Below, piece by piece: positions 2,873 through 21,634 of a DNA stretch of 41,854 bases. How positions within the stretch are numbered: the stretch's first letter is position 1; the number at the start of each line of letters is the position of its first letter. The notes beneath the pieces are model-generated. The model saw only the letters and a list, made by a program, of their open reading frames with translations, was not told the DNA's origin and did not search any database. Source of the DNA: an uncultured Verrucomicrobiales bacterium (GTDB taxonomy: Bacteria; Verrucomicrobiota; Verrucomicrobiia; Limisphaerales; UBA1100); the NCBI GenBank assembly GCA_913041895.1, contig CAJWKQ010000005.1:1-41854 (forward strand), read 5' to 3'. The translations under genes and the position numbers were made by a program.

Positions 2873-2875
2873 ACA

Positions 2876-2887: not shown

Positions 2888-2958
2888 AATGATTTCAAAA
2901 GACATATAACAGAAGTCGATGTAATTCTACGTTTAATGAGGAATGATTTCATCAGTTA

Positions 2959-4077
2959 ATGGATTGTTTAAGATCTTTAAAAATTAATGCTTCCTGTATT
3001 CCTTGGAGATTTCTTGAGTTAATTGGGAGTAAGGACAAGAAAGCCAAGATTCAATATGTAGTGGAAAAAGCCCAATGGGCCATACATTGGGAAGGACAGT
3101 CAATTCGCAATAACATAGAAAAGATGTACCCTGGCGCTATGGATGTTACATCTCGTCCCAATCGTATTATGGGAGCTGGCAAAGTAGTGCACTTTGGTTC
3201 ACAGTATATGTGGGAAAATTGGGCCCGGCATCTCACAATAAAAAACCACTATGTCGCATCTTTTTTTCACGGTAAGCCAGAAGATAGTCCTGCAACAGCT
3301 CGGCACATAGAACATTTTTTGGCATTATCATCAAGGCTTTCAAAGATTGTTGTGTCTTGCTCTTTGGTTTACGACAGACTCTGTAAACTGGGAGTCGATG
3401 AGGTTAAGCTGGAAAAGATTCCAATAGGAGTGGATACGGAGGTGTTTAGCCCGGCCAGAGCTGAAAAACGATTGCAGATCCGCCGAGAAATAGGGGTTTC
3501 AGATGACGTAGTTGTAATCGGTACATTTCAAAAAGATGGTCAAGGGTGGGGTGATGGAAACACGCCAAAGAATATCAAGGGCCCCGATGTTTTTTTGTCT
3601 GTAGTTGAGAGGTTAGCACGCGAATTTTCGTTGCATATAGTACTGACGGGACCTGCGCGCGGTTATGTAAAAAAAGGGCTGGAAGTAGCTCGAATACCGT
3701 ATACTCATCGATATCTTCAGACTCCCCAAGAATTAGTTAATCTCTACCCTGCACTGGATTTCTATTTGATTACTTCCCGCGAAGAAGGTGGACCAAAGGG
3801 GCTTCTGGAAAGCATGGCATCGGGTATTCCGGTTGTTTCAACTGCAGTAGGGATGGCGCCTGATCTAATTAAGAATGGAGTTAATGGATTCATGGTGGAT
3901 AGCGAAGACGTGGAGGGTCTGGCAGACTCTGCATTGGAGCTTATGAGTCTTTCAGCCACAGCACTTTCAGAAATGACTTCAACAGCACGTAAAAGTGTCT
4001 TTGAATGTGATGTAAATAGTGTCGCTATGCAGCACTGGAATAAAGTGTATCAGCCAATTTTGGATGAATCTAAATAA
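2959..4077 (+). CDS. glycosyltransferase family 4-like
   Basis: IPIGVDTEVFSPAR, EEGGPKGLLESMASGIPVVSTAVGMAPDLIKNGVNGFMV. Confidence 0.88.
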   Translation: MDCLRSLKINASCIPWRFLELIGSKDKKAKIQYVVEKAQWAIHWEGQSIRNNIEKMYPGAMDVTSRPNRIMGAGKVVHFGSQYMWENWARHLTIKNHYVASFFHGKPEDSPATARHIEHFLALSSRLSKIVVSCSLVYDRLCKLGVDEVKLEKIPIGVDTEVFSPARAEKRLQIRREIGVSDDVVVIGTFQKDGQGWGDGNTPKNIKGPDVFLSVVERLAREFSLHIVLTGPARGYVKKGLEVARIPYTHRYLQTPQELVNLYPALDFYLITSREEGGPKGLLESMASGIPVVSTAVGMAPDLIKNGVNGFMVDSEDVEGLADSALELMSLSATALSEMTSTARKSVFECDVNSVAMQHWNKVYQPILDESK

Positions 4078-5167
4078 GAAATCGGCAACGGGATTGCTGA
4101 TCCGATACTTGTATGAAGGTTTTTGTTGGGGGCGAGTTTGCCTGAATCGTTCCTGCTCTAAGGATCGAAATTTGGTTGTATATTATGGCGGTGCGCGTGG
4201 TGGGGATTTCGGGGGGACTTTGGTCAAAGTTGCCAGGCTCCAGAAAGTTTTTCCTGAGAGGAAATGGGGGTTTAATATGGTGTACAACCTCAGCAATGCC
4301 TCATATCTCAACGAGCAGACGATCAGAAGCCTTAAACAGCAGGAAATACCAATTGTGCATAATCAAAATGGTACGTTCTATCCTGCATGGTATGGAGGCG
4401 ATTGGTTTCACGAAAACAAACGTATGGCTTCGGGTTTCCATGCTGCTGATTATGTTTTTTATCAGAGCGAATTCTGCCGAGATGCTGCCCGCCATCATCT
4501 AGGAGAACGCAAAGGTCCTGGAGAAATCCTATATAATGCGGTCGATACAAATTTATTTTCTCCAGCAGAAAGGAAAGGAAGCTCCCGCCCTTTTACTTTT
4601 TTGGTTACTGGAAAGATTGACCTGCACATGTGGTACCGTCTAGAGAGCACATTGCTTGGGTTAGCATTCGCTTCGAAAATGGGAAAGAAGTACGCTCTTA
4701 CAATCGCGGGTTGGATGAGTTCAAATGTTAGGAGATTGGTTGGCAATCTGGTGCGAGAGAAAAATCTGGGCCAGCAGGTCCGGGTTCAAGGGGCATACAC
4801 ACAGTTAGAAGCTCCGGGAGTATACCGTAATGCGGACGCTTACGTAATGATGAAACATCAAGATCCTTGCCCAAATGTGGTCATTGAGGCGCTGTCCTCG
4901 GGATTGCCTGTATTATTTTCGAAATCAGGAGGGGTGCCAGAGTTAGTGGGAAATGAGGCGGGAATAGGATTAGAATGTGAACTAAGTTGGGAAAGGGTTT
5001 GTGTGCCATCTCCGGAGGAAATTGGACAAGGTATGGTTCAGATCGTAAGCACATCCGACAGTATGTCTGAAGCAGCAAGACATCGGGCATGCAGTATGTT
5101 CGATATTTCACACTGGGTTGATAGACACCAAGAAATATTTAGCCGTATTCAGAATTCAGACGCATGA
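4064..5167 (+). CDS. glycosyltransferase family 4-like
   Basis: YNAVDTNLFSPAERK, DPCPNVVIEALSSGLPVLFSKSGGVPELVG. The ORF track opens at 4019, but the ATG at 4064 (MNLNKKS) reduces the overlap with the upstream gene. Confidence 0.85.
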   Translation: MNLNKKSATGLLIRYLYEGFCWGRVCLNRSCSKDRNLVVYYGGARGGDFGGTLVKVARLQKVFPERKWGFNMVYNLSNASYLNEQTIRSLKQQEIPIVHNQNGTFYPAWYGGDWFHENKRMASGFHAADYVFYQSEFCRDAARHHLGERKGPGEILYNAVDTNLFSPAERKGSSRPFTFLVTGKIDLHMWYRLESTLLGLAFASKMGKKYALTIAGWMSSNVRRLVGNLVREKNLGQQVRVQGAYTQLEAPGVYRNADAYVMMKHQDPCPNVVIEALSSGLPVLFSKSGGVPELVGNEAGIGLECELSWERVCVPSPEEIGQGMVQIVSTSDSMSEAARHRACSMFDISHWVDRHQEIFSRIQNSDA

Positions 5168-5225
5168 GTCGATTCTGTAAAATTCATTTCGCCAATGTAA
5201 TAAAGTTCTCTATGAATACAGACCA

Positions 5226-6107
5226 ATGGCTGATCCTCTAGTTACAGTTATACTACCTTGTTATAACGCTCACCAGCACCTTGATAAGGCATTGGCTAGT
5301 GTTCTAGAACAGACATATAATAGAATTGAAATAATTATTGTTAACGATGGTTCCACAAACAGTGAAACGCTCGACTATTTGAGTTCTCTAGATAGCTCCA
5401 TAAATGTGGTTTATCAGCAAAATAAAGGGTTGCCTGCAGCTCGGAATCGCGGTTTTAACGATGCGAAAGGTTTATTTGTTTTGCCATTGGATTGTGATGA
5501 CTGGTTGGAACCAAATGCAATTGCTCAACTGCTTGAGGCTGTGGAAGTTGCAGGTGAGAGTGTTTTTGCATTTCCTCAGATGATTCTTGAAGGTCAGGCT
5601 GCTGGCATAACAACAAAGCATTATAATCTTTTTGAGCAGCTTTTCCTGAATCAATTGCCTTACTGCTTGCTGCTTCCCAAAGTCGCTTGGGAAAAAATAG
5701 GAGGATATGATGAATCCATGCGTCAAGGCTATGAAGACTGGGAGTTTAATATTCGTTTGAGCACAAATGGATGGCGGGCAGTGACCGTGCCGGAGCCACT
5801 ATTTCATTACAGGGTTACTAGAACCGGAATGCTGCTAAGTACTTCAGGTCGTCAGCATTGTGAATTATGGAAGACTATTAGAAAAAAACATCCTGAAACG
5901 TACCGTTGGAGTAAACTTAAGGAAACATGGACAGAGTGGAGAAAAAATCCTTCATCATATCCACTATGGGTTTATTTCATATGGTTGATTGCTAGTAGCA
6001 TTATGCCGACGGCATGGGGATCAAAATTCTTTTCATGGGCAAGGCGATATTCCAACAGCAGGCGGGTTACGCGCGCATATCACGCTAGAAAAGCTAAATT
6101 GATTTGA
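5226..6107 (+). CDS. glycosyltransferase family 2
   Basis: PLVTVILPCYNAHQHLDKALASVLEQTYNRIEIIIVNDGST, LPLDCDDWLEP, GYEDWEFNIRL. Confidence 0.93.
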   Translation: MADPLVTVILPCYNAHQHLDKALASVLEQTYNRIEIIIVNDGSTNSETLDYLSSLDSSINVVYQQNKGLPAARNRGFNDAKGLFVLPLDCDDWLEPNAIAQLLEAVEVAGESVFAFPQMILEGQAAGITTKHYNLFEQLFLNQLPYCLLLPKVAWEKIGGYDESMRQGYEDWEFNIRLSTNGWRAVTVPEPLFHYRVTRTGMLLSTSGRQHCELWKTIRKKHPETYRWSKLKETWTEWRKNPSSYPLWVYFIWLIASSIMPTAWGSKFFSWARRYSNSRRVTRAYHARKAKLI

Positions 6108-6188
6108 GACAATCATGTTAAAAATTGCAGATGACACATTGACTTTGAAGTGGAAGTTCATATCCGATTGATTGAAATATAATTAAAA

Positions 6189-8150
6189 ATGTGCGGGATT
6201 GCAGGATTTGCGGTTGAAGGAGGCTTTCAAGAAGAACTTGCGATAAAGGAAGCACGAGCAATGGCAGCTGCGTTGAGACACCGCGGTCCAGATGATTCAG
6301 GGTTGTGGATAGACTCTCAGGTTGGAATTGCTTTGGCCCATCAGCGACTATCGGTTCTTGATCTTTCCAAGGCCGGCAGTCAACCGATGTTTTCGGTCTC
6401 AGGCCGCTACGTGATTTCTTTTAATGGAGAGATTTATAACCACGAACAAATACGGCAAGAATTGAAAGGGAACAATATCAAATGGCGTGGTACATCGGAC
6501 ACGGAGTCATTGCTTGCGGGTATTGAAACATGGGGATTGGCTCGGACACTTGAAAAAATCGTAGGTATGTACGCTTTTAGCCTATGGGATGAAAAGAAGA
6601 GAGAGCTTTCATTAGTACGAGACCGAATGGGAGAAAAACCACTTTATTATGGGCTAAATAATGGCAGGTTCTTCTTCGGATCTGAATTGAAAGCCTTTAG
6701 GGCTCATTCCCAGTTCAAGGGAGAGATCAATCGTGATTCACTAGCTTTATATATGAGGCACAATTGTGTTCCCGCACCCTATTCTATATATCTTGGCATT
6801 AATAAATTGATGCCTGGCACTTATATCACAGTTCCATTGGGAGGTTTGAGTCGAACTGATGATATCAATCCCGTTCATTACTGGTCGTTGGAATCGGTCG
6901 CTTCCAACCAGCAAAGGAATGTCTTTGAGGGGAGTCAGGAGGAGGCGCTTGTGGAATTAGAGCGATTATTGAATGAAACAATAAGAGGTCAATCTCTAGC
7001 CGATGTTCCATTGGGTGCGTTTTTATCCGGGGGGATTGACTCCTCCTTGGTGGTAGCTTTGATGCAGGCAAACTCGAGTAAGCCCATAAAGACATTTACT
7101 GTGGGTTTTGAAGAGGAAGGATACAACGAAGCAAGTCATGCAAGGGCAGTTGCTTCCCATCTAGAGACGGATCATACCGAGTTATATGTTACACCCAAAG
7201 AGTGTAGGGCAGTAATTCCCAGATTACCCGAGCTGTATGATGAACCTTTCGCTGATTCTTCACAAATCCCCACCAGTTTGATTTCCAAGTTGGCCTCTAG
7301 TCAGGTAACAGTGGCTTTATCAGGTGATGGAGGTGATGAGATTTTTGGTGGATATAATCGGTATATTTGGACTAGAAACATTTGGAACAAGGTGAAGTGG
7401 TTCCCAAGAATAATGAAAAGCTTTGCCGCATTTGGGTTAAAATCCGCTTCGTATCAGACATGGGATCGTTTATACGGATTGGTTGATTTCGCTATTCCCA
7501 GCCGTCATAAAATTACTCAGGCCGGCTTGAAAGTCCATAAGTTGTCTGAAGTTATAACTGCCAGCAATCCTGATTTGTTCTACCGCGAGCTAGTGTCACA
7601 TTGGAAGAGTCCCTCTGATGTAGTCCTAAACGCAAGGGAGCCGAAAACTATTTTGACAAGCGTCATTGGAGGTATCCCTGAAAAGTCCATTGAACAGAGA
7701 ATGATGCTGATCGATGGACTAAGTTATTTACCAGACGATATTCTGGTGAAAGTGGACCGCGCATCGATGGGCGAGAGCTTGGAAACCCGAATCCCTCTTC
7801 TTGATCATCGAATAGTGGAGTTTGCATGGAATTTGCCCTTGGATATGAAGATAAATAATGGCACAGGCAAATGGGTGCTAAGAAAGTTGCTGGGGAAATA
7901 CCTTAAGGAAGGATTGTTTGAGCGACCGAAAATGGGGTTTGGGATTCCATTAGGGAATTGGCTGCGTGGTCCATTGCGCGATTGGGGTGAAGATCTTCTC
8001 AGCCGAAGAAGGCTAAGTGAGGAAGGCTTCTTTGAAGTCAATGCAATTAGGAATACCTGGAATCAACACCTTAAAGGTCAATCAGGACTTGAGTATCGAC
8101 TATGGGATGTTCTGGTTTATCAAGCTTGGCATCAAGCAAACAAAGATTAA
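6189..8150 (+). CDS. asnB: asparagine synthase (glutamine-hydrolysing)
   Basis: MCGIAGF N-terminal Ntn amidotransferase, RHRGPDDSG, SGGIDSSLV PP-loop, ALSGDGGDEIFGGY. Confidence 0.95.
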   Translation: MCGIAGFAVEGGFQEELAIKEARAMAAALRHRGPDDSGLWIDSQVGIALAHQRLSVLDLSKAGSQPMFSVSGRYVISFNGEIYNHEQIRQELKGNNIKWRGTSDTESLLAGIETWGLARTLEKIVGMYAFSLWDEKKRELSLVRDRMGEKPLYYGLNNGRFFFGSELKAFRAHSQFKGEINRDSLALYMRHNCVPAPYSIYLGINKLMPGTYITVPLGGLSRTDDINPVHYWSLESVASNQQRNVFEGSQEEALVELERLLNETIRGQSLADVPLGAFLSGGIDSSLVVALMQANSSKPIKTFTVGFEEEGYNEASHARAVASHLETDHTELYVTPKECRAVIPRLPELYDEPFADSSQIPTSLISKLASSQVTVALSGDGGDEIFGGYNRYIWTRNIWNKVKWFPRIMKSFAAFGLKSASYQTWDRLYGLVDFAIPSRHKITQAGLKVHKLSEVITASNPDLFYRELVSHWKSPSDVVLNAREPKTILTSVIGGIPEKSIEQRMMLIDGLSYLPDDILVKVDRASMGESLETRIPLLDHRIVEFAWNLPLDMKINNGTGKWVLRKLLGKYLKEGLFERPKMGFGIPLGNWLRGPLRDWGEDLLSRRRLSEEGFFEVNAIRNTWNQHLKGQSGLEYRLWDVLVYQAWHQANKD

Positions 8151-9306
8151 CACGCCTATTAGTTTAATAACTCAAAATCAAAAACGGATATTATTTGTTT
8201 CCGCAGCGGATTGGGCTTTCCGAATTCATCGGCTTTCACTTGCTAAGTGGCTTATTGGACGAGGATTTAAAGTGGCGGTGATATGCCCCAAGGGGGATGT
8301 AGTTGAAGAACTCCAGCAGTCTGGGTTAGAGGTATATGAAATGCATTTGTCGAGAGACCGTATTTCCTTAAGTGAATTATTTGCCGCATCAAAATCAATT
8401 ATTCAATCAATAGAAAATTTTAATCCCGATATTTTGCACTGTATTTCCTTAAGATGTATCCTGCTGGGCTGGTATGCAACGCGCACTAATTCAACTTCTC
8501 CACGGCTAGTAAACCATGTTATTGGAATGGGTAGTATCTTTTCTGAGAACCCGAGGTCAATTAGATTGAAAATGATACGAGGTATAGTGGATTGGGGATT
8601 AAAAAGAGCATTCCGAATGCATAATAGTACTACCGTGTTTCAGAATTATGATGATCTGAGATGGTGGCAGCAGCGGGCAGGTTTACAATCCAATCAGGCG
8701 CTATGTATTCCCGGCGGGATTGATTGGCATCTGGATAATTATGAGGATACGCTAAATGAAGGCCGAATTCTATTTGTTGGGCGCATGCTCCGGGATAAAG
8801 GAATACTTGAGTTAATAGATGCATGGGGCGAGTTACTTAAAGAAGGAATATCTTCCGAACTTTATCTTTGCGGTGCAGTCGATCCCGGAAATCCAAATAG
8901 TTTTAGCAAAGCAGAAATGGAAACGCTCGCAGAAAAGAGAGGATTTAAATGGTTGGGCAGGCGTGATGACGTTCCGGAGCAGATGGCTCGAGCTGCATTG
9001 ATAGTCCTGCCAACTTATCGAGAAGGGTTTCCAAGGGTACTATTAGAGGCGGGGATGGCCAGCCGCGCAGTTGTAGCAACTGATGTTCCTGGGTGCAGGG
9101 AAATAGTGGAAAATGAAAAAACCGGTTTATTAGTGAAACCACGTGAGGTTAGATCTCTTTTTCGGGCGATGAAAAGATTAATAAATGATTCTTCCTTACG
9201 AGAACAGTTGGCCCACCGACTCCATGAGCGGGTTAAAGCAGAATTTTCCGATTCGGTAATCAATCCGAAATGGGGAGATCTATACGACAATATCACGCGA
9301 ACATGA
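8107..9306 (+). CDS. glycosyltransferase family 4 (PglA-like architecture)
   Basis: KRILFVSAADWAFRIHRLSLAKWLIGRGFKVAVICPKG, FVGRMLRDKGILELIDA, PTYREGFPRVLLEAGMASRAVVATDVPGCREIV. The track opens at 8017; ATG 8107 is preferred because the earlier start overlaps asnB deeply. Confidence 0.9.
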   Translation: MFWFIKLGIKQTKINTPISLITQNQKRILFVSAADWAFRIHRLSLAKWLIGRGFKVAVICPKGDVVEELQQSGLEVYEMHLSRDRISLSELFAASKSIIQSIENFNPDILHCISLRCILLGWYATRTNSTSPRLVNHVIGMGSIFSENPRSIRLKMIRGIVDWGLKRAFRMHNSTTVFQNYDDLRWWQQRAGLQSNQALCIPGGIDWHLDNYEDTLNEGRILFVGRMLRDKGILELIDAWGELLKEGISSELYLCGAVDPGNPNSFSKAEMETLAEKRGFKWLGRRDDVPEQMARAALIVLPTYREGFPRVLLEAGMASRAVVATDVPGCREIVENEKTGLLVKPREVRSLFRAMKRLINDSSLREQLAHRLHERVKAEFSDSVINPKWGDLYDNITRT

Positions 9307-10301
9307 TCCTCGGTATATATATCGGAGCGGCCTTGATGAGTTTGGCACTTTGCTATCCTGTTCTCTTTTGGTTGAAGAAAGAAAACGTTTGGGATACGCC
9401 TAATGCCCGTTCTAGCCATGAGCAGCCTACTATTCGCGGTGGTGGAATCGCATCATTAATAGTAATCTTTTTTGTGATAGGGATTTGGGTTTGTCCAGAA
9501 TCCCCCAGATTGGGATATGCATGGATAGGGGGCTTGATTGTTTTGTCATGGGTAAGTTTGCGTGATGACTTTGGAGGTGTGCCAATCTTTCAACGGTTAT
9601 TGGCGCAAATCGTTGCAGTGGGCTTGGTGAATTGGGCTCTTTTGGCAAATGACCATTCGTGGGGAGTTATTTGCATCGCGTGCCTTGTAATGGTGGCTTT
9701 TATAAATTTTGTCAATTTCATGGATGGCATTAATGGTTTGGTTACAGGGATGATAATGCTGGTAGCTCTTGGGCTGGTCTGGACGTTTCCGGATATTAAC
9801 TGGCTCTGTAAGTTTGTGGCTTTAGCTTTGGCAGGCTCAGTGAGCGGGTTTTTGCCTTTCAATTTTCCAAAGGCTAAAATGTTTCTTGGTGATGTAGGGA
9901 GTATTACTTTGGGGTTTTCAACTGCTGTAATCATTTTGTGGATATGGGCAGATAATTCGACAGTTTCGAATCCATTATTACTTCCAATCTTCGTATTATA
10001 TTTTTTCCTAGAAGGGGGTGCTGCCATTTTGCGAAGAATGCTGACAGGCGAAAAATGGTGGGAACCGCACAGAGAACATTTTTTTCAGAGACTGAACAGA
10101 AGTGGGTACGGTCATACTCGTACGACGGTATTGATAATATGTATTCAATGCCTAGTAATCCTTTTTATTTGGGGTGCTGTTTCATACAAATGGCCTCCTA
10201 TTTTGTCTTGGCTATTATCCTTACTGATATGGGTGGGTTTTTTTCTCTACGTTGAATCCAAGTTTATGGATACAAAGGAAGGCTCTTTGCCGAAACTTTA
10301 A
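9303..10301 (+). CDS. MraY/WecA-family undecaprenyl-phosphate sugar-1-phosphate transferase
   Basis: PNARSSHEQPTIRGGGIA, LRDDFGGVP, INFVNFMDGINGLV, FLGDVGSITLGF, EPHREHFFQRLNRSGYGHTRTT; multi-TM. ATG 9303 preferred over 9270. Confidence 0.93.
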   Translation: MILGIYIGAALMSLALCYPVLFWLKKENVWDTPNARSSHEQPTIRGGGIASLIVIFFVIGIWVCPESPRLGYAWIGGLIVLSWVSLRDDFGGVPIFQRLLAQIVAVGLVNWALLANDHSWGVICIACLVMVAFINFVNFMDGINGLVTGMIMLVALGLVWTFPDINWLCKFVALALAGSVSGFLPFNFPKAKMFLGDVGSITLGFSTAVIILWIWADNSTVSNPLLLPIFVLYFFLEGGAAILRRMLTGEKWWEPHREHFFQRLNRSGYGHTRTTVLIICIQCLVILFIWGAVSYKWPPILSWLLSLLIWVGFFLYVESKFMDTKEGSLPKL

Positions 10302-10302
10302 T

Positions 10303-12132
10303 ATGGCCAATAGCATTCATCATAATTTGAGTCGTAATGAACGATTTATGATACTGCTCGTTGTATATGCCTTCGTTTTGGTGACGTCGACTCTTCTAGC
10401 ATACGGTTTGCGATTTGATTTTGCGGTGCCCACTGAACATCAGCTTTCTATTTTGAAGGTGTGGATGTGGGTTTGGCCCATCAAACTAATAGCTCTTGCA
10501 TTGGCAGGTCAATTTTCGAGCTTACTGAGCTTTTTTAGCATTCCCGACCTAAAGAGATTAGGTTTTGGGTTAGGAGTTGTAACAATGGGCTTACTATTTG
10601 TATGGAGTTTTATGCCGTGGGATTATGAAGTATCAAGGGGCGCAATCATATTGGACGGAATTGTAGCTTTCTTGGGAATTTCCATGATTCGCTTGGCCTT
10701 TAGATTAATCCGCCAAAATACAAGTTTAGCTGGTGATAGAGAACCTATCCGGATTGGTATAGTAGGAGCTGGAGCGGCAGGGGCAGCACTGGCACGTGAA
10801 ATGCAGGTTCAGGGAGGAATGCGTCCTATTGTTTTTTTCGATGACGCGAAAGAGAAACACGGCACTCAAGTACATGGTATTCCTGTAGTAGGCCCGGTTG
10901 AGATCTTGCAGAATCAGGAGCAATCTTTGGTAGAGGAGGTCGTGATCGCAATGCCTTCGGTATCCGGATCACGGGTGCGTGAAGTCACAAATGTGCTGCA
11001 GGGCTTAAACATAACTTTCAGGACGGTGCCAACGATGAGTCAATTGGCTCAAGGCCAAGTTGTAACAGCGTTACGCCCAGTCCGCATTAGTGATGTTCTT
11101 GGCAGAGAGTCAGTTGATCTGGAGACCAAAAATCTAATGGGATTTTTTGATGGAAAGACTGTTTTGGTTACGGGTGCAGGTGGAAGTATTGGTTCGGAAT
11201 TATGTAGACAATTATCGGACTTAAACCTTAAGCGTTTAATTATGGTGGAGAGGTCTGAAGCCTGCCTTTTTAAGTTGCATTCTGCAATCGATGGAAAAAC
11301 AGGACTGGTTCCGCAGCTATTAGATGTCCTCAACGAATCTGCAATGGAGAGCCTCCTTAAAAAATACAAACCTGAAATATTGTTCCACGCTGCAGCCTTT
11401 AAACACGTTTCATTATTAGAAGATCAGCCTGCGGTGGCTGTGTTAAATAATGTATTGGCTACTCATCAACTGGCCAGTATATCCGGAAAAAATGGAGTTG
11501 AAGCTTTTGTGCTTGTTTCGACCGATAAGGCGGTTGATCCCGCTAGTGTAATGGGCGCAACCAAGAGGATTGCTGAGCAGTTGATCGAAGGACATTCATT
11601 AAAAGGTGATGGAACAAATTATATGTCAGTACGATTTGGCAATGTGCTGGCTTCCTCTGGAAGCGTTGTCCCTATTTTTCAGAAACAGATTGAACAAGGC
11701 GGGCCTGTTACAGTTCGTGGAAATAAAACAACTCGATTCTTTATGAGTATTCCTGAAGCTGCGGGCCTTGTTTTATCCAGTGCAGCTCTTGGGGTAAATG
11801 GAGATCAATTTATTTTGGATATGGGAAAACCGGTTCGGATTGTTGATTTGGCTGAACAGATGATACGCCTCAGTGGCAAACTGCCCAGAGAGGAAATAGA
11901 GATCCGGTTAACGGAATTACTACCTGGTGAAAAAGCACACGAGTCCCTGCATTCGGCTGATGAGCAACTTGTTGATACCTCCCATCCCAAAATTAGAAGA
12001 GTTGAAGGATGCTGTATTCAGACTAACGAATGGGAAAAATTGAATTCAGAACTTAAACTCATTCGAGGGGCAAATGATGATACCGCTCTGACCTTCTTGA
12101 GGAAGTTTGTGCCCCACTTCCGCCCTCTTTAA
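10303..12132 (+). CDS. membrane-anchored nucleotide-sugar 4,6-dehydratase (WbpM/PglF/CapD family)
   Basis: N-terminal TM segments, CoA-binding-like domain (IGIVGAGAAGAALAREM), second Rossmann motif VTGAGGSIGSELCRQ, STDKAVDPASVMGATKR catalytic region with Met in place of the SDR Tyr, as in WbpM/PglF. ATG 10303 preferred. Confidence 0.93.
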   Translation: MANSIHHNLSRNERFMILLVVYAFVLVTSTLLAYGLRFDFAVPTEHQLSILKVWMWVWPIKLIALALAGQFSSLLSFFSIPDLKRLGFGLGVVTMGLLFVWSFMPWDYEVSRGAIILDGIVAFLGISMIRLAFRLIRQNTSLAGDREPIRIGIVGAGAAGAALAREMQVQGGMRPIVFFDDAKEKHGTQVHGIPVVGPVEILQNQEQSLVEEVVIAMPSVSGSRVREVTNVLQGLNITFRTVPTMSQLAQGQVVTALRPVRISDVLGRESVDLETKNLMGFFDGKTVLVTGAGGSIGSELCRQLSDLNLKRLIMVERSEACLFKLHSAIDGKTGLVPQLLDVLNESAMESLLKKYKPEILFHAAAFKHVSLLEDQPAVAVLNNVLATHQLASISGKNGVEAFVLVSTDKAVDPASVMGATKRIAEQLIEGHSLKGDGTNYMSVRFGNVLASSGSVVPIFQKQIEQGGPVTVRGNKTTRFFMSIPEAAGLVLSSAALGVNGDQFILDMGKPVRIVDLAEQMIRLSGKLPREEIEIRLTELLPGEKAHESLHSADEQLVDTSHPKIRRVEGCCIQTNEWEKLNSELKLIRGANDDTALTFLRKFVPHFRPL

Positions 12133-12147
12133 ATCTATATATACCAA

Positions 12148-12172
12148 CTTCAGGGATTATCGTTCTCTGAAG
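12148..12172. terminator. candidate bidirectional hairpin between convergent genes
   Basis: cttcaggga-ttatcgt-tctctgaag: 9-bp stem with one G-U pair and a 7-nt loop at the meeting point of a + and a - gene. Confidence 0.45.
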
Positions 12173-15100
12173 GATTAGTAATTATGCTTTGCGTTGTCGC
12201 ATTTTGATCGGCAGCACTGGTTAAGACAATCCGACGAGTGGCTGCTCCCCCAGAATTGGCCCAAGACGCGTTGTTGTCATAAATTAATTTACCACTGACG
12301 GTTATTTTTTTGCCATCAGCACTAAAAGCTAGACCAGCTGGAGGACTAGCAGGATTTATGTTTACCGAGTAGTAGGAATTTGTCGCATTGTCTTCAAAGG
12401 TGATTGTTTTCACCCCGAGAAAATTCTGCCCATTGATGACCAGTGGTAGAAGATTGTTTGGATAAACACCAGTTGTCCCATTGATGTCATAGGTATCTAC
12501 CCCATTAAACCCACTTCCAGCTCCAGCAAAAGTTGCGGTAACAGTTGAGTGAAACTCAGGCATGGCACTTAGAGTAAAAGCACCTGTGCTATTAAGGTCA
12601 CTGACCACCGTGCCAAAAGGTGTTGATATTTTTATTCGACGGTGATTGATGATGGGTGAATCGAGAAGGTTTGCATTAAAAAATGAATTAGGTGCGATAG
12701 TGAAGTTAGAGTCAGTGTTTAAAGTTAGGCCGTTACTAAAATAATTAGGGGGGGAACCGATGCTAGCTCCAGAGTTGGCTGCAATTGTACTACCGTCAAC
12801 ATCCACCACTTCGGCAGAGCTAATCAGCCCGAAACCAGAGCCAATAATCTCTATCGAATCGAAATCCCTGCGATAATTTGAGGTTCCGCTTGTAGTTTGA
12901 TAGCTCTTAAATGTTGGGGGCACTCCAACCTGAAACCGCAGCTCTTGTGGAGAGACAAACGCATCTCGATCGCTGATTAGTTTAAATCTACGCCATTTCG
13001 AAGAAAGTAAAGAAGAGTCAGCTGCAGCGGTATTACTAAACTGAATTGCTTTAGTATTAATAGATATCGCAGTGTCAGTAACCGTTATTCCGTTAGCAGG
13101 GAGCGTTATCTTAGGCTGATCTGTTGAGTTAAGATCTGTACCATTTTCATCAACTAATTGGATTTCTGTGACTCCCCGAAGATTTGAGCCGGTTAAAGTA
13201 ATGGTGTCGCCGGTGTTGGGGTCCCGGTTATATGTGAAAGGAGTAGTAAACCCGGCAATGAAAGCAACCTCAGGTTGGGCATTAACATTAAATTTCTGAC
13301 TGTTTGAGTTTCCAATTAAATTATATACTTTAAACATCCTCATGGCATCAGTGCCGTTACCGTCGGCGGTTCCTGTGAAGAAGGTGTCTTTCGAAAGCTG
13401 AATGAGATTACCTCCATCAGCTACTGCGACTCCAACAGTCGGGAGATCGATATGCACCGCTGGATCCAAAGCTGACCCGTTTATATCCACAATTTCGATG
13501 CGGTAGGTGGTGTTAAGTGCTTCCCCTTGAATCGTTACAATTTCATCACGGTGGAAAGCCGATGTTGCGTTAATATCGTTGACTCCTGGATTAGCAGTAG
13601 TTCCTCTGTATAAGCCTGTTATTTTAGGAGTGCTGGTGATATATTCAATGAGGTTCACACTATTGGTACTGCTAAGAGATGCAGCCGCAGAATCTCTAGC
13701 CACACGCATTCTTCGGTGTCTGCCATCAGCGGAAGTTGAAATTGCGTTTATTGGAAGTATGGCATGAGAATCACTGCGTACTTGAAAATCGGCGGTAGTG
13801 CTATTGCCAGTTGCCGGGAATAACACTGTTCCATTTTCGTCTTCGACCCTGAAGTAGCTTAGTTGAGATTTAATATCTCCTATTGGACGACTCTTAAATC
13901 CGTAACCGTATATATCTAAATTATGTTCGGCTCTGTCATAAGTAAGATTATCTCGACTTGTTCCAGTAATGACTGGGGTTCCGGTATCTATGCCGATTCC
14001 TTCGGAGGCATCACTCTTGCCAATAGTATTCCAAATAATTATTTTACGAGTGCCGGGATCCCCTTCCGCTGCGTCTGTAATATGACCGGGGGGAATAATG
14101 ATTTGATTGTGTGATTCGATAAATGTCTGAACTACTGATCCCTGAATTGTTTGCAAGACGACATTGCCATCCAATATCTGAATTGCAGTGGCTGAGGCGA
14201 GGTTGCTTCCTTCAATAATTAATTTTTCTTGTGTACGAGTAAGTCGACCATCCTCACCAGAATCTGTAATGCGGGTAATGACAGGTGTTGTAGTGGCCGG
14301 AGAGATAGCATTTTCAAGTATAGACATTTGGGCATCATTAGGAAAAACAACAATGTCTTTGGGGCCAGGGCCTTTTATGTGCCCCCAAAGACTGTAGGTA
14401 TTGGTATTGCCCACAACACTAGCTTCTCCGCTCCATATTACCTCGAATCCTTGCCCCAGCTTGGTAAACGTATATTGGATGGGGCCTGAAATAATTCCAG
14501 GCCCTACATTGGTGGTTAACAGTTGGGCTGGGCCTAGATTGTTGGTGTAGTTATCAATCCAAGCACTAAAGTCCGTACGATTGAATGCGATGGGAATGCC
14601 GTCGGGAGAGACCCCAAGCTCATCTGCAACAAATAGGATGTCTGGTTGGAATATTGCTCTGCCAACGGTTTGAGAAAAATGTTTCAAGGTTGGTACTCCA
14701 ATAAATGCCGAGGAACCAGGTGTGGTGTTGTTGAGATTGATTACATTTTGACCGTTAGTGCTGACAAATATATCAGTCCATTCATGAGTAGCAGCCGTGA
14801 AGTTTATGCCGAGGAACGAATCAAATTGCTGCTCCCTGAATTCTATTTTATTTATCCCTCCACGCATTGCTACATCCACCAGTGCGGGAGGAGCTTGAAC
14901 GGGTAAACTAGATGTGATTGGTAGACCCGGGATTATGCCTGCATTGCGTCTGGGAACATAAGCTCCAGAAATACCTGTGGGATCTGGATAGATTCTCCCC
15001 GATCCATTCGGAAAAACAGGAATGGCATAAGTAGGCAAAAAGCTAGCGGGTGTCATCAGAACAACATTTGGATCTAGTCCTTCATATACATAGTTGTTGG

Positions 15101-15971
15101 TGCGGTAGAGATATTTTAGCCCTCCAGCATCGTCGTAAGTTAAGGCGTGACGCGGTTGATATTGTCCCCCCATTGCGTTTTTGCCATCGTAGTACACGCC
15201 GAACCCAAATAGTGTCGGCTGTTCGGTCCAAAAGATGGCCGTGTTACCATAGAATGCATCGGTGATTGCCGATAAGCTGGTCCAGGCATTACCCGTGGTA
15301 TCTGTGGTAAACTCTTCCATATCAGCAAAGGACGGCACCTGAGTAACTCCGACAGAAGGCGGTGCATCGTGTATAAGGCGGTAGCTAAAAGCTACATTGT
15401 TAATCATTGAAGTTGGCTTATAGGTAATCGGATCAAAATTTCGTAGCCTTACGTTGAAATTCAATTGAGTTCCAGCAGCATTGGTTGAGGTGGAGTGAAT
15501 ACCAAAAGCATAACGGTAGGGATTGCCGAGACCCAAATGGTTTACTATTAATCCAAGAGTAAGACTTTTGATATCGATTATTTGGCCGTTTTTTGCGGTT
15601 GTATTTAGCCATGAAGAATTGTAGTTGCTGCGGAATCCATGATTGCTTAGGTCAAGGCTACTGACTCCGCTATACTCGTCATTTTCGAAAAAATCATTGA
15701 CTGCATTAAAGGCTTCATTGACTGCTTCACGGCCTTCCAATCCAAAATATTGCATGAAGCTCGCATCGAATGCATATGTCAGTAATGGGATGTTCCACCG
15801 GAAAAAGGTTTTCAAGTCTTTTGGTCCACCGAGGTCGTCCGTGTAGTTGAAGTCAATACTTCCACTGCCAAGCTCATTGGCATGCATAGGACCCACCAGA
15901 ACAAAGGCACGAGCGTTTTGGGTCCCCCAAAGCCCAGCTAGCAAAACAAGAAAAAGTAAAAAACGTTTCAC
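12150..15971 (-). CDS. large secreted protein with tandem TIG/IPT-like repeats; rich in D/E-X-N-X-S/T sequons
   Basis: GTG start, signal peptide MKRFLLFLVLLAGLWGTQNARA, 1273 aa. Repeats of the form ..I.GSNL.GVTEIQLVDENGTDL...DG..I.. An in-frame TAA just upstream fixes the start. Confidence 0.85.
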   Translation of the reverse strand: MKRFLLFLVLLAGLWGTQNARAFVLVGPMHANELGSGSIDFNYTDDLGGPKDLKTFFRWNIPLLTYAFDASFMQYFGLEGREAVNEAFNAVNDFFENDEYSGVSSLDLSNHGFRSNYNSSWLNTTAKNGQIIDIKSLTLGLIVNHLGLGNPYRYAFGIHSTSTNAAGTQLNFNVRLRNFDPITYKPTSMINNVAFSYRLIHDAPPSVGVTQVPSFADMEEFTTDTTGNAWTSLSAITDAFYGNTAIFWTEQPTLFGFGVYYDGKNAMGGQYQPRHALTYDDAGGLKYLYRTNNYVYEGLDPNVVLMTPASFLPTYAIPVFPNGSGRIYPDPTGISGAYVPRRNAGIIPGLPITSSLPVQAPPALVDVAMRGGINKIEFREQQFDSFLGINFTAATHEWTDIFVSTNGQNVINLNNTTPGSSAFIGVPTLKHFSQTVGRAIFQPDILFVADELGVSPDGIPIAFNRTDFSAWIDNYTNNLGPAQLLTTNVGPGIISGPIQYTFTKLGQGFEVIWSGEASVVGNTNTYSLWGHIKGPGPKDIVVFPNDAQMSILENAISPATTTPVITRITDSGEDGRLTRTQEKLIIEGSNLASATAIQILDGNVVLQTIQGSVVQTFIESHNQIIIPPGHITDAAEGDPGTRKIIIWNTIGKSDASEGIGIDTGTPVITGTSRDNLTYDRAEHNLDIYGYGFKSRPIGDIKSQLSYFRVEDENGTVLFPATGNSTTADFQVRSDSHAILPINAISTSADGRHRRMRVARDSAAASLSSTNSVNLIEYITSTPKITGLYRGTTANPGVNDINATSAFHRDEIVTIQGEALNTTYRIEIVDINGSALDPAVHIDLPTVGVAVADGGNLIQLSKDTFFTGTADGNGTDAMRMFKVYNLIGNSNSQKFNVNAQPEVAFIAGFTTPFTYNRDPNTGDTITLTGSNLRGVTEIQLVDENGTDLNSTDQPKITLPANGITVTDTAISINTKAIQFSNTAAADSSLLSSKWRRFKLISDRDAFVSPQELRFQVGVPPTFKSYQTTSGTSNYRRDFDSIEIIGSGFGLISSAEVVDVDGSTIAANSGASIGSPPNYFSNGLTLNTDSNFTIAPNSFFNANLLDSPIINHRRIKISTPFGTVVSDLNSTGAFTLSAMPEFHSTVTATFAGAGSGFNGVDTYDINGTTGVYPNNLLPLVINGQNFLGVKTITFEDNATNSYYSVNINPASPPAGLAFSADGKKITVSGKLIYDNNASWANSGGAATRRIVLTSAADQNATTQSIITNPSENDNP
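12160..14300 (-). repeat. about six tandem ~115-130-aa TIG/IPT-like protein repeats
   Basis: Repeat units begin PVITRITDSGEDG, PVITGTSRDN, PKITGLYRGTT, PEVAFIAGFTT, PTFKSYQTTSG, PEFHSTVTAT. Each contains a (I/L)xGxxF/L segment and then a VDxNG-like hairpin. Confidence 0.65.
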
Positions 15972-16147: not shown

Positions 16148-17284
16148 TTAGCCGGCAAGGGAACTCACATATGAGGCTGCGTAATGAACGGTGAGAGAGG
16201 TCAATCCCCAGGCGCAGATGATGGCAATAATCAGTACGATGGCCAGCTCAGTGATCTGCATTGTCCATTGTAGACCCTTTCGGCAGCCGAGGAGGGTGAG
16301 AGTTTCTAATTCGCGAGTGCGCAATCGGCGGGTTAGAGCAATGATCAATGCCAAGAGTGCTCCCATTGCAAGGGTCACTAGCGAGTGATGGGCGTCTAGA
16401 AAATCACTGACGCGCAAAACCATGTACATAAGTTCGGACATGACATCTGGTGATTTGAGCACCTGCAGGGACGGATGATCTTGATAATGGGCTAGCAGTA
16501 GGGCTTGGGCTTTTTTACTCTCGGGCCGGACCAGCATGGCGGTTAAAGGGAAGGTCTCTGGATCTCCGTGAGGATGGAATGAATCAACATTTTCTTCTGT
16601 GATCTCGAGATGTTTCTTTACCAACTTTGGGCTGGTGCCGTTGTGATCAAGGCTTGGATCATGTCCATGCCATATGCCTTCGATGATCCATGCAGTCTTA
16701 AGACTCACAAAAATAGCTGTATCATCCGCTGTGTCAGATGGGGCAAGGACTGTGGTGATGTTTAGTTTCAGCGGATATTCTCCTGCCAAGTCGAATAAAT
16801 TTTCGCGGTCGGTCAAGAGCGTGTCGCCGGGGCGCAACCCCAGCTTGGTGGCGACGGCAGCACCAAGCTCGCAATCACCGAGTATTTGCATCGATTTCCC
16901 TTGGCGTATCTTGAGATTGCGGAAATGAAAATAATCCTTCCGGGTGCCCACCACGGGAAAACCTTGGCAGGTAAATTTGGAATGCAGCGGAATCACCTCA
17001 CCGATTTCCAGTTGTTGCAATTTTTTGTACTCGCCATTGGGCACAGTGCCATTATTTCGAGCCCGGAAATAAAGTCCGTGCAGGACGAGGTCAAAACGGC
17101 TGCCTTTGGGGCCGATCACTAGGGGCGTGGAATCGGCTCGGGCACTAATTGTGCGGTCAAATTCATCCACCAATTGGTGAGTTACCATTGGTAGATACAA
17201 TGCTATGGTTACGCCTAGAACCATTGCGGTTGATTGGCCTGAGCGTGTCCACAGATAACGCCATGCAAGAAAGAGACTACGCAT
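16148..17284 (-). CDS. FtsX/LolC/MacB-like ABC transporter permease
   Basis: N-terminal TM plus large periplasmic domain plus three C-terminal TM segments (LALIIALTRRLRTRELETLTLLGCRKGLQWTMQITELAIVLIIAIICAWGL). Start MRSLFLAW at 17284; the track opens at 17314. Confidence 0.85.
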   Translation of the reverse strand: MRSLFLAWRYLWTRSGQSTAMVLGVTIALYLPMVTHQLVDEFDRTISARADSTPLVIGPKGSRFDLVLHGLYFRARNNGTVPNGEYKKLQQLEIGEVIPLHSKFTCQGFPVVGTRKDYFHFRNLKIRQGKSMQILGDCELGAAVATKLGLRPGDTLLTDRENLFDLAGEYPLKLNITTVLAPSDTADDTAIFVSLKTAWIIEGIWHGHDPSLDHNGTSPKLVKKHLEITEENVDSFHPHGDPETFPLTAMLVRPESKKAQALLLAHYQDHPSLQVLKSPDVMSELMYMVLRVSDFLDAHHSLVTLAMGALLALIIALTRRLRTRELETLTLLGCRKGLQWTMQITELAIVLIIAIICAWGLTSLTVHYAASYVSSLAG

Positions 17285-17954
17285 AAGGAGTCTCTCGCTT
17301 ATGGAATTCCTCAAAATTAATCACCTGTTCAAAACGATCCAGCAGCGCGTGATCGTGAGTTACCATTACCAGTGTGGCGTGATTAGCATTAGCTTGTGCA
17401 AACAATAAATCTAGGATTTTAGACTTGCTGGAAGGATCGAGATTGCCGGTGGGTTCATCGGCTAGAATTAGCTTCGGTTGCGGCAAAAGTGCGCGTCCAA
17501 TCGCAACGCGTTGCAGTTCGCCTTGTGACAAGGTATCAATGGCTGCGTCCAGTTTGTCGGTCAATTGGAGATCTTTTGCCAAAGAATCGAGACGAATGTT
17601 CACTTCTGCCGTCAGATTAATTGCGTCATTCAGACGGTAAGGGATTCGGATATTCTCCAGAACATTCAGGTACTCAATCAGTCTAAAGTCCTGAAATACA
17701 AAGCCGATCTGTTTAATTCGAAAAGCGCGTCGGCCAGCATCAGACAAGCTGTGCAGTGGGTTTTCACCTACCTGAATTGTACCTGATTGCGGCTGAGTAA
17801 TACCGGCTAAAAGATGGAGCAAGGTGGTTTTACCCGAACCGCTAGGCCCAACAAAAGCAGTGCGTGATCCGGTTGCTAGCTTCAACTCAGGGATGTGCAG
17901 CCGGAAATCTTCGTCACCATAGGCAAACTCTACTTGGCATAGGCCGATATTCAT
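17277..17954 (-). CDS. ABC transporter ATP-binding protein (LolD/MacB-like)
   Basis: Walker A GPSGSGKTTLLHLLAG, signature LSQGELQRVAIGRALL, Walker B LILADEPTGNLDP. Confidence 0.95.
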   Translation of the reverse strand: MNIGLCQVEFAYGDEDFRLHIPELKLATGSRTAFVGPSGSGKTTLLHLLAGITQPQSGTIQVGENPLHSLSDAGRRAFRIKQIGFVFQDFRLIEYLNVLENIRIPYRLNDAINLTAEVNIRLDSLAKDLQLTDKLDAAIDTLSQGELQRVAIGRALLPQPKLILADEPTGNLDPSSKSKILDLLFAQANANHATLVMVTHDHALLDRFEQVINFEEFHKRETPYA

Positions 17955-19732
17955 CAGTTGTCGTCAAACATGCGCAGGCCGGTTTCAAAACGCACCCGTT
18001 TTTCATTCGTAACTTCAAATGCTGAGATACGTCCACGACCCTCTTTAGAGCTATCGAGCTTGATGCGGGCTGAGTATTGGTTTTCGCGTGTGTGAATGTG
18101 TCCCCAATGTTCTACTGTACCGGTTACATTCCAGGTGCAGAGCAAACTATAACTCTCTCCTGCCGGTTCAATAGAAACGATGCGCACTTCTTTTACATCT
18201 GAGATCGCCCCTCCCTGTTCCTGCATACGAAGAGCGCTTTCAATTTGAAGAAATAGTTTTTCAAGTGTTTTACCTGTGACACTGTGGGCGAGCGCATCGT
18301 AAATATCACTTTGTTGGTTATACTCCCAAGCGCGGTAAATGTTTTGAAGTAAAGTAGATGTGTGTTCCTTAAGGTCCAAGGAGGCAGAATGCTTTCTTTG
18401 TGAGAGTGGAACATGATCTTTAAATAAAAATGCGCCCAGCAACCAGATTGCGAGCACTCCCAAACTTCGTACGATGCGCTGAGAGTGGCCACGATAGATT
18501 CCCCACGTGAAAACGCTTGCGGCAAATGCAATCCCGATTAGAATAAAACTAACGCGTGAAATTGCGGGTTGAAGTGGGGCAATCCAACCAGTATTAAAAT
18601 TGATGGGGCTTGGTGTTTCGCCCTCACGGGACCAATCGTATTGTGGCTGGTCTTTAACGAAGAATTCTTCTGTTGGAGGTAAGTTGCGGTCATAAACAAT
18701 TGAACGCATAAACGGAGCCGAATCATTGAAGATCTCCCATTTCATTTTCACGGATTTGGGTGGTGCCTTGGCAGGATAACGGAGAATAATTCCAAGTCTT
18801 GCTTGATAAGCACTTATGCGACGAGGCTTTGCATTTTGGGCGAAGTCGTTGATGTCTAAACCAAAAAACTGTAGTCTCTGAAGCACTGCCTTTACCGGAA
18901 TTTCATCAATTTCAACGGGGTTTCGCTCGCGAAACCACTCGGCAATTAGTTTGCGCGCTACCTCTTGCTCTTCCACTTCAAGAAACTCACGATTTTTTCG
19001 TTTCACAGGCACCCATTTTTCGAATGTGAGCAGAGGCACCAGAATCTCATGACGAACCTCTCGGTCATTCAAATAAATGTAAGAATACAGTCCGGTGTAG
19101 CTGGTAATGCCAAGTCGTTTTTGCATTTCTTCCTCGCGCTTCTTACGCAACTCGCGCCAGTTCTTAGGGGCTTCCGTTGGGGGATTCTCCCAATCAATAG
19201 CAATGGTATGTGGTCTGCCGTGTTGGAGTTGAGTAGGTTTGTCAGTCCAAATGCCTTTCTGCAAAACCATGAAATCCATTATGGATGGGATCACGCTTTT
19301 GTTTCCTCCAAATTGCTGCAAAACAGTCAGAAATTTTGGTTTTTGCTTCGCAGGAATATAGCGCATCAAGAAAATTGCATGTCGCTTCATTAGCTCGGCT
19401 TGCGGCACGCCTTCATCCGGGATTGCCGCAAGATCCCGGCGTTCAACCTCTCCTTTCAGGAGTTTTCCATCTTCACCGCGTAGCGTAAAATGTTTTAGCA
19501 GGAATTCGTCGTGTTTTACCGCTGCTTCACGAAGGTCTTCAGCGTTAAAGATGGTTTTTGAGTCTGCTTTTAAGCTGTGAAAAAGCACAAGATCCTCGAG
19601 CATTATGCGAAGTTCCACTAGCACCTCATCCTCGCGCACATTGGCGACGGCGTTACTCATGGATATGGGATGAGCTATGGCCGAAAGGGCCAAAACCAAC
19701 CATGCTGCCACAATGATCCTGAGGGAGTTCAA
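17954..19732 (-). CDS. uncharacterised secreted/membrane protein coupled to the ABC transporter
   Basis: 592-aa ORF with signal peptide (LRIIVAAWLVLALSAIA) and central TM segments. Stop and next start overlap (TGATG), implying translational coupling with the ATPase. Confidence 0.8.
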   Translation of the reverse strand: MNSLRIIVAAWLVLALSAIAHPISMSNAVANVREDEVLVELRIMLEDLVLFHSLKADSKTIFNAEDLREAAVKHDEFLLKHFTLRGEDGKLLKGEVERRDLAAIPDEGVPQAELMKRHAIFLMRYIPAKQKPKFLTVLQQFGGNKSVIPSIMDFMVLQKGIWTDKPTQLQHGRPHTIAIDWENPPTEAPKNWRELRKKREEEMQKRLGITSYTGLYSYIYLNDREVRHEILVPLLTFEKWVPVKRKNREFLEVEEQEVARKLIAEWFRERNPVEIDEIPVKAVLQRLQFFGLDINDFAQNAKPRRISAYQARLGIILRYPAKAPPKSVKMKWEIFNDSAPFMRSIVYDRNLPPTEEFFVKDQPQYDWSREGETPSPINFNTGWIAPLQPAISRVSFILIGIAFAASVFTWGIYRGHSQRIVRSLGVLAIWLLGAFLFKDHVPLSQRKHSASLDLKEHTSTLLQNIYRAWEYNQQSDIYDALAHSVTGKTLEKLFLQIESALRMQEQGGAISDVKEVRIVSIEPAGESYSLLCTWNVTGTVEHWGHIHTRENQYSARIKLDSSKEGRGRISAFEVTNEKRVRFETGLRMFDDN

Positions 19733-19780
19733 GGCCGCGTCTTATAGTTTAAATCGCCGAATTACGAAAGCCTCAAAGAG

Positions 19781-21634
19781 TTACTTTACTTCGATGATGG
19801 TTTCCACCCACTCTCGAAAGTGCATGCCTTCAGATTCGATATCGGCAGTGATAATGTAAACCCCAGGCACCCTCGGAGCCTGAATCTTTACTTTTACCGT
19901 CCCTTCGGCTCGTGATCTAAGTTTGGTGGAGCTAGGTTTGCTCAGTACTTTGACACCTTGGCGGCCGTGTGGAGTGATCTTGAATATGCGCTGTGTCGGA
20001 GAATGATTGATGAGGCGTACTTCCACCTCGCGCATTTCGCCGGGTTTCATTTTGTTTCCGTATGGATAAAATGTCGCCCACCTTTCGTCTATCCCATAGT
20101 TTGGATCATCCCACGGAAAGAGATCGCGAAGGATCTTGGTGCGTTTGGCATATTGTGCTTCAAGGTAGGTTAGTTCCCTTCCCGAGAATCGGAATACATG
20201 CGGCACATGTTGGTTGATCAGCCAAGTATTCTTGGGCAATTCACGTACAATCTTGAAACATCGCGGGTAGCCTGAATCTGGATGGACTAGGTTTCGATTT
20301 AATAAACAATAATCATCGATGCCAGAGGGAGCAAACGAGTCGCCGATAAAGAACACCGGTTTGGCTTTGGGCCGTTCTACGAGTAATGCCCCGTGGTAAT
20401 ACATTTGCCCCGGGAAAAACCGAAAAGTGAATTGGTATTCATGCCATTTCATTGTCTCACCGTCTTTCATACCCTTGACATCTTTGATGGCATTTTCGGT
20501 TAAACCTGGCATGAGATATCTTCCAGGATTCTCTAATACATCCTCATATTCAGTAGTTGCAAATACGGGGCACTTGAAGTGTTCGGCAGCCGCCTTGACC
20601 ATTTGTGAATGGTCGTCATGCGTGTGGGTGACAAAGATGCCATCGATTTGTTTTACAACACTCTTCGCTACGAGATCTTTCACGTATTCGAATTGATTCT
20701 TTCCGCCGCAATCCAAAAGGAATCCATGGCCGTTGTCTGCCACGATGATGCGGCTGGTTGAATATTGAATAATCCAATCGGGCGTATCCAGGTGTAGGCA
20801 GTAAGGCATGAGGTCAATCTTTGCTCCCTTACCCAATATGCGTTCACCACAAATACGCATTCGCTCTTCTTTGAAATACCAATGCAATGCGTTGGTCGAG
20901 AGGTAGTTCCGGTAGAGCGCTTGCACACGGCTGATAAGTTTGTTGATAGCCTTTTCAGAGTTATCAATTACAGGGCCACGTGCAGGATATATAATATCTG
21001 GTTTCCACGCCTTTATCTTTTCGAGGCTGTTGATTAAATCTGCCAAGCGCGCGCCATAACCGTGATATCCCCCAACCTTTGCCTTGGGAATTGCATCTTG
21101 AAAACTGTATAGATCGAAGATTTTCCCATCTCCGTAAATTAAGTCTCCCGTGAACGCGCACCGCTTTCCATCCACCACTGCCAAATAAGACACGGCTCCT
21201 CGAGTAAAACCTGGCGTTTCCATTACCTGAAACTTGATGTTAGATGAGTCTATAACATCTCCTTCGCTTACCCATTTATCCACTTTTATCGGCTCTATCA
21301 ACACTTTGGTGGACTGCTGCTCATAATAATGGAAACGTTTCGAAGACATAGTTTTCCAGTAATCGTTTGTATTTGAAAATAGGTTTTCTTCTTTTTGCGG
21401 CGCCACCACGAGGGCGTCCTCAGGTATTGCTGCAATGACATCACGTCGGTGATGAGTAAGCAGCAATTGGCCTACTTTTTGATTGGATTTACCAAACCTA
21501 TACACGTGTACAGAATCAGAATTTTTGAGGTTTCCAATAGAAATTGAGTTTCCGTCGGCAAGTTGCTCAATCTTGACGCTTTCTGCCCCAGTTATTAATT
21601 GAATTAGCATTAGCGAAATAACTAGTGTGCGCAT
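19781..21634 (-). CDS. tandem metallo-beta-lactamase-fold protein (degenerate first domain, intact second)
   Basis: Second domain VTHTHDDHSQM, FFIGDSF, NQHVPH. First domain has LLTHHRRDV / TPGFTRG / FTGDLIYG / YPARGPV, with several metal ligands lost. Confidence 0.82.
   Translation of the reverse strand: MRTLVISLMLIQLITGAESVKIEQLADGNSISIGNLKNSDSVHVYRFGKSNQKVGQLLLTHHRRDVIAAIPEDALVVAPQKEENLFSNTNDYWKTMSSKRFHYYEQQSTKVLIEPIKVDKWVSEGDVIDSSNIKFQVMETPGFTRGAVSYLAVVDGKRCAFTGDLIYGDGKIFDLYSFQDAIPKAKVGGYHGYGARLADLINSLEKIKAWKPDIIYPARGPVIDNSEKAINKLISRVQALYRNYLSTNALHWYFKEERMRICGERILGKGAKIDLMPYCLHLDTPDWIIQYSTSRIIVADNGHGFLLDCGGKNQFEYVKDLVAKSVVKQIDGIFVTHTHDDHSQMVKAAAEHFKCPVFATTEYEDVLENPGRYLMPGLTENAIKDVKGMKDGETMKWHEYQFTFRFFPGQMYYHGALLVERPKAKPVFFIGDSFAPSGIDDYCLLNRNLVHPDSGYPRCFKIVRELPKNTWLINQHVPHVFRFSGRELTYLEAQYAKRTKILRDLFPWDDPNYGIDERWATFYPYGNKMKPGEMREVEVRLINHSPTQRIFKITPHGRQGVKVLSKPSSTKLRSRAEGTVKVKIQAPRVPGVYIITADIESEGMHFREWVETIIEVK

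Follow-up and report, generated by a model that had tools for sequence, protein, structure and literature searches.

What is known about the oligosaccharyltransferase PglB comes mainly from Campylobacter and its relatives. In the C. lari enzyme, R331 pairs with the Asp at position −2 of the acceptor site (PMC4894442), the first residue of a D/E-X-N-X-S/T sequon; the preference for an acid at this position is referred to below as the minus-two rule. A survey of PglB published in 2015 tested epsilon- and deltaproteobacterial enzymes plus one from Aquificae (PMC4894442), and no earlier report for Verrucomicrobiota was found in the open-access literature searched. The locus described here lies on a stretch of 41,854 nucleotides from an uncultured Verrucomicrobiales bacterium (contig CAJWKQ010000005.1 of assembly GCA_913041895.1, positions 1 to 41,854 of the forward strand; hereafter, the window). 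It encodes part of a PglB-type enzyme and, in the same gene cluster, a secreted protein of 1273 residues that, judging from its sequence, is very probably the dedicated acceptor of the N-glycosylation system specified by that cluster. The features of the acceptor gene are as follows, (−) denoting the reverse strand and sequons with D/E at −2 being called acidic:

12150..15971 (−), 1273-residue secreted protein, proposed dedicated N-glycoprotein (acceptor); open reading frame (ORF) with a GTG start
15906..15971 (−), signal-peptide-like N terminus, residues 1-22, the cleavage point being inferred from sequence
14316..15905 (−), N-terminal domain, residues 23-552, with 1 of 9 sequons acidic
12153..14315 (−), C-terminal region, residues 553-1273, a chain of immunoglobulin (Ig)-like beta domains with 12 of 15 sequons acidic
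15846..15848 (−), Asn42 of DFNYT
13833..13835 (−), Asn713 of DENGT
13569..13571 (−), Asn801 of DINAT
13479..13481 (−), Asn831 of DINGS
13356..13358 (−), Asn872 of DGNGT
13143..13145 (−), Asn943 of DENGT
13128..13130 (−), Asn948 of DLNST
12705..12707 (−), Asn1089 of DSNFT
12591..12593 (−), Asn1127 of DLNST
12480..12482 (−), Asn1164 of DINGT
12387..12389 (−), Asn1195 of EDNAT
12270..12272 (−), Asn1234 of DNNAS
12201..12203 (−), Asn1257 of DQNAT; 11 of 16 aligned relatives have an acidic sequon here

The signal-peptide-like N terminus reads MKRFLLFLVLLAGLWGTQNARAF, and searches of Pfam, NCBIfam and the PDB sequences returned no match for the protein. An initial annotation had placed it at 12195-15854, which is the span of the sites; the ORF itself is larger. 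The acidic sequons found on recounting were exactly the 13 named in that annotation, although the total of N-X-S/T sites was 24 and not about 23. An acid occupied −2 in 13 of these 24 sites versus 4 of the 79 other Asn residues (Fisher p 3e-7), and shuffling the residues of the protein 5000 times rendered 1.6 ± 1.3 acidic sequons, with a maximum of 9.

To place these values in the secretome of the organism, 941 ORFs on 1.19 Mb (38%) of the genome were sorted with a home-made signal-peptide/membrane heuristic. In the 320 other predicted secreted ORFs, an acid was present at −2 in 83 of 725 sequons (11.4%) versus 10.9% of non-sequon Asn residues, in agreement with the one in ten previously taken as the chance expectation. 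Within this sample, the bias was thus limited to the acceptor family. The only strong outliers were the window protein and its 2082-residue paralogue on contig C116 of the same genome (L056; G000:C116:30-6248), a probable second acceptor in which 10 of 30 sequons are acidic. Among the proteins encoded next to the acceptor, those of 592 residues (3 sequons) and with a metallo-beta-lactamase (MBL) fold (1 sequon) had no acidic sequon, as already claimed; the neighbouring permease had one, DHNGT. In two other PglB-bearing genomes, members of the family were enriched and secreted ORFs outside it were not. Since enrichment follows the family and not the remaining secreted ORFs, selection appears to act on the acceptor proteins. 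Outside the family, a secreted ORF of 2061 residues (L223:10703-16903, on G000:C28) had 7 of 19 sequons acidic (p 0.003); this may reflect chance, which fits given 941 ORFs, or another substrate.

These results bear on the alternative that PglB modifies numerous proteins, of which this one simply has more sites, and that the cluster chiefly makes O-antigen or exopolysaccharide. The Pgl systems known so far are general, the cluster also holds rmlA, rmlB, wecB and many glycosyltransferase genes, and the 11% of other secreted sequons that are acidic by chance could be used by the enzyme. However, only the acceptor family shows selection for the full motif, and in three genera the cluster has the acceptor gene as a fixed member, so that this alternative is considered unlikely.

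A second alternative is that the sites are VDxNG[S/T] beta-hairpin turns in the Ig-like repeats, retained for the sake of folding rather than of glycosylation, a caveat already raised in the initial annotation. Five of the 13 sites are indeed of the form D-x-N-G-S/T (DENGT twice, DINGS, DGNGT and DINGT), several lie in hairpins, and the same hairpin positions reappear across repeats and relatives. Family-wide, −2 was occupied by D in 32% and by E in 6.5% of sequons, versus 3.8% and 1.2% at other Asn residues; in the C-terminal region of the family, it was acidic in 146 of 273 sequons versus 35 of 637 other Asn residues. The residue at +2 after D/E-X-N was Thr in 117 and Ser in 57 of 244 cases. 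To cancel out any Asp preference that a column has of its own, 16 relatives were compared in a Mantel-Haenszel test with the alignment columns as strata. The −2 position was acidic in 141 of 266 intact sequons (53%) versus 82 of 903 broken ones (9%), an odds ratio (OR) of 13.9 that was 12.9 once the set was thinned to 11 sequences, the P values of both ignoring phylogeny. The control motifs D-X-S/T, S/G/T/A/Q-X-S/T and N-X-notS/T gave OR values of 0.38-0.55. Where the Asn was kept but the Ser/Thr lost, the acid was retained in only 3 of 33 cases. The −2 acid, the Asn and the +2 Ser/Thr therefore behave as one unit, which matches the prediction from PglB recognition.

A structural cause is unlikely because the acid tracks the intact sequon and is mostly gone where the sequon is broken. 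Hairpins of the NG[S/T] type were acidic at −2 in 60% of cases, against 4% when D replaced the Asn (DG[S/T]) and 12% for NG not followed by S/T. Moreover, 8 of the 13 sites are not NG turns, and N[A/S][S/T] sites were as acidic (59%) as NG[S/T]. The sites are also spread over 40 alignment columns in 16 sequences, so their positions turn over between relatives. The coupling test thus answers the caveat, and retention for folding is strongly disfavoured and appears quite improbable. As for the idea that the DxN(x) pattern is a calcium site akin to DxNxDG/DxDxDG repeats, short Asp-/Asn-rich loops do occur within this beta-repeat, putative surface protein, but in loops of that type D and N are interchangeable and Ser/Thr at +2 is unneeded, whereas [DE]xDx[ST] was found in 13 of 253 cases versus 174 of 449 for [DE]xNx[ST], which makes it a very remote prospect.

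The enzyme that would read these sequons is split between two contigs:

2..1036 (−), PglB/STT3 oligosaccharyltransferase, N-terminal 345 residues, cut by the contig end (PF02516, E 2e-16, over the cut-off)
G000:C164:5756-7240 (−), C-terminal half of PglB, found by means of a relative's 854-residue PglB

The relative's protein is ~89% identical to the half in the window and 86% identical to that on contig C164, which belongs to the same genome as the window, with ~20 residues unseen between the two. By homology and motifs, the product of the split gene is a predicted PglB-type oligosaccharyltransferase. The window half contains the motifs THDAY and GYLDTD; the other contains METIIEAK (with the TIxE glutamate), LMVRISGS (with the Arg equivalent to R331) and WWDWG. 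When the relative's full-length protein was compared with C. lari PglB (5ogl; E 2e-46), the Arg of RISGS aligned with R331 and the glutamate of TIIE with E319, and the R331-equivalent Arg and WWD were invariant in 11 PglB homologues, among which the columns of the catalytic and sequon-binding motifs were conserved. The NCBIfam model ProtGlycPglB scored 82 bits against a cut-off of 1300, on the truncated, half-length window protein alone; this cut-off looks tight around the Campylobacter enzymes, more a naming threshold than a defining feature. In genus g2, two PglB homologues (L078:1076-5959 and L079:1392-6203) are open frames of ~1600 residues with large insertions, twice the usual length.

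The remainder of the cluster, (+) denoting the forward strand, comprises:

1112..1672 (+), NusG-family antiterminator-like gene beside PglB (PF02357), the adjacency being conserved
1850..9306 (+), glycosyltransferases and AsnB-like amidotransferase of the glycan cluster
9270..10301 (+), WecA/WbpL-like polyprenyl-phosphate sugar-1-phosphate transferase (PF00953), which likely starts the lipid-linked glycan
10252..12132 (+), WbpM/PglF-like uridine diphosphate N-acetylhexosamine (UDP-HexNAc) 4,6-dehydratase, convergent with the acceptor gene (PF02719, E 2e-94)
16148..21634 (−), permease, ATP-binding cassette (ABC) ATPase, 592-residue protein and MBL-fold protein (617 residues), conserved neighbours upstream of the acceptor
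37754..39619 (+), MsbA/PglK-like ABC exporter, candidate flippase (TIGR02203, 455 bits; PglK model, 216 bits; both under the cut-off)

This arrangement recurs, wholly or in its visible parts, in genera g1, g2 and g5. PglB diverges from the NusG-like gene, which is followed by the glycosyltransferase, AsnB-like, WecA-like and WbpM/PglF-like genes; the acceptor gene then runs in the opposite direction, with the permease, ABC ATPase, 592-residue and MBL-fold genes upstream of it. Some of these clusters also hold a DegT aminotransferase gene. The block upstream of the acceptor is conserved in three genera. On contig G017:C9 (L054, L074), the frames of PglB, the acceptor and neighbouring genes are broken; since frameshifts affect many genes of that contig and are probably sequencing indels, the broken frames were not taken for pseudogenes.

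The distribution of both partners was surveyed across the order, in 249 genomes that are at least 80% complete. Of these, 12 have PglB and 13 have the sequon-rich C-terminal region, which gave one further, weak match (E 2e-4); enzyme and region occur in the same two families, designated f1 and f8. In the phylum as a whole PglB is uncommon: 14 of the 388 genomes sampled exceeded the Pfam cut-off, several of them marginally. Many members of the order that lack PglB have the N-terminal domain on its own, and acidic sequons are rare in it with or without the enzyme; it is unenriched in the PglB-bearing family too (5.8% versus 3.3%). The pooled contrast between homologues from PglB-bearing and PglB-lacking genomes (35.5% versus 2.7%) was therefore dropped as evidence, being confounded by the PglB-lacking homologues consisting of the N-terminal domain only.

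In seven f1 genomes, PglB was not detected even with a more sensitive profile search. Six of the seven have homologues of the acceptor, sequon-rich where long enough. The NusG-like gene that adjoins PglB was likewise missing in all seven, and in several of them the contig with the acceptor breaks off within that gene or close to it; incomplete assembly or binning is therefore likely, and a simpler explanation than true loss. PglB-lacking homologues of equal sequon density had been named beforehand as grounds for rejecting the acceptor role: none at order level is comparable, and f1 genomes without detected PglB do keep sequon-rich long homologues.

Several points weigh against the role of the protein as dedicated acceptor. 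The whole inference is drawn from sequence, and this extends to glycan attachment, the structure of the glycan, its flippase, and the surface location and function of the product. The PglB enzymes of C. coli, C. upsaliensis and D. gigas are relaxed despite keeping the Arg (PMC4894442); since relaxed enzymes can keep it, the R331-equivalent Arg supports, but does not prove, a minus-two rule here. The cluster likewise resembles O-antigen/exopolysaccharide loci. Order-level relatives lacking PglB have no C-terminal region, so that a region-matched comparison with them is impossible and their homologues provide no such control. Three f1 genomes of 88-95% completeness (G001, G003 and G015) hold acceptor homologues and no detected PglB. 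Finally, the P values of the coupling test and of its thinned repeat take no account of phylogeny, although the controls use the same sequences. Set against these points, the family-specific enrichment, the coupling within the motif, the shared cluster and the shared families support the earlier proposal of a resident acceptor for the PglB of the same locus.

In the predicted structure of the C-terminal region (mean predicted local distance difference test, pLDDT, 86), beta domains follow one another in a chain. Foldseek matched this model to generic Ig-like multidomain chains, including the EA1 S-layer protein (rank 9) and invasin; the template modelling (TM) scores were low, as expected since such chains are flexible. 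In this model, 10 of the 12 acidic-sequon Asn residues lie outside strands and helices; as 25 of the 43 non-sequon Asn residues do so too, this placement is only consistent with glycosylation. The N-terminal domain is common to proteins of ~500 residues across the order, yet this order-wide conservation is accompanied by no Pfam match. Its model was poor (pLDDT 61) and the matrixin-like matches insignificant; a degenerate HExxH-like stretch whose metal ligands are lost gives a weak hint of an inactive, degenerate matrixin/metalloprotease-like core. Within this domain (15600-15625), non-acidic sequons resembling NYN[S/T][S/T]W-x-N-x-[S/T]A are kept in PglB-bearing families and not in PglB-lacking relatives.

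Taken together, the genes suggest the following scheme. The WecA-like transferase, the WbpM/PglF-like dehydratase and the glycosyltransferases of the cluster would build a glycan on a polyprenyl carrier, and a flippase, perhaps the MsbA/PglK-like exporter, would turn it outward. The acceptor would be exported by means of its signal peptide, and STT3/PglB would transfer the glycan to the Asn of D/E-X-N-X-S/T sites, the −2 acid probably being chosen via the conserved R331-equivalent Arg, a residue that is present and whose role is predicted. The acceptor could carry as many as a dozen or so glycans, most of them on loops in the C-terminal Ig-like chain, and would thus be a heavily glycosylated protein of the envelope or surface. 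These observations suggest that an uncultured Verrucomicrobiota lineage has a dedicated bacterial N-glycoprotein system, with enzyme, sugar chain and protein in one conserved cluster. The broader proposal, to which we give an even chance, is that of a verrucomicrobial N-glycosylation with one enzyme and one substrate family, in which the enzyme, the glycan pathway and a many-site surface glycoprotein share a cluster, the number of sites is selected while their positions turn over, and the whole is a bacterial counterpart of the archaeal S-layer N-glycoproteins.

Natural selection seems to have imprinted the minus-two rule on a natural acceptor in another phylum; acceptor preference could therefore be read from evolution, without culture. 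For glycoengineering, the family offers a natural many-site acceptor together with diverse PglB enzymes. It also raises the question of what role a dedicated bacterial N-glycoprotein plays at the cell surface.

Compared with known systems, the locus resembles Campylobacter Pgl in its single-subunit STT3/PglB with the TIxE glutamate, the R331-equivalent Arg and WWD[W/Y]G, in the D/E-X-N-X-S/T sites, and in the linked lipid-glycan genes, with a dehydratase and aminotransferases like PglF/PglE. It differs in its phylum, in the WecA-like (PF00953) initiating enzyme, that of C. jejuni being PglC, in having a multi-site acceptor encoded within the cluster and site selection seen in one protein family, and in a PglB of ~850 residues (in the relative) whose counterpart half in the window scores low against the NCBIfam PglB model. 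By analogy, the archaeal S-layer N-glycoproteins modified by AglB are similar in combining a secreted protein, abundant predicted N-glycosylation and an STT3-type enzyme; nevertheless, no sequence relation to them was found, a surface-layer role is only putative here and, to our knowledge, archaeal sequons follow no minus-two rule. Within the same Planctomycetes-Verrucomicrobia-Chlamydiae (PVC) group, the S-layer protein of Kuenenia stuttgartiensis is also a heavily glycosylated surface protein (PMC5088730), a property that in the present case is predicted from genes; that protein, however, is O-glycosylated and does not follow the PglB-type D/E-X-N-X-S/T logic seen here.

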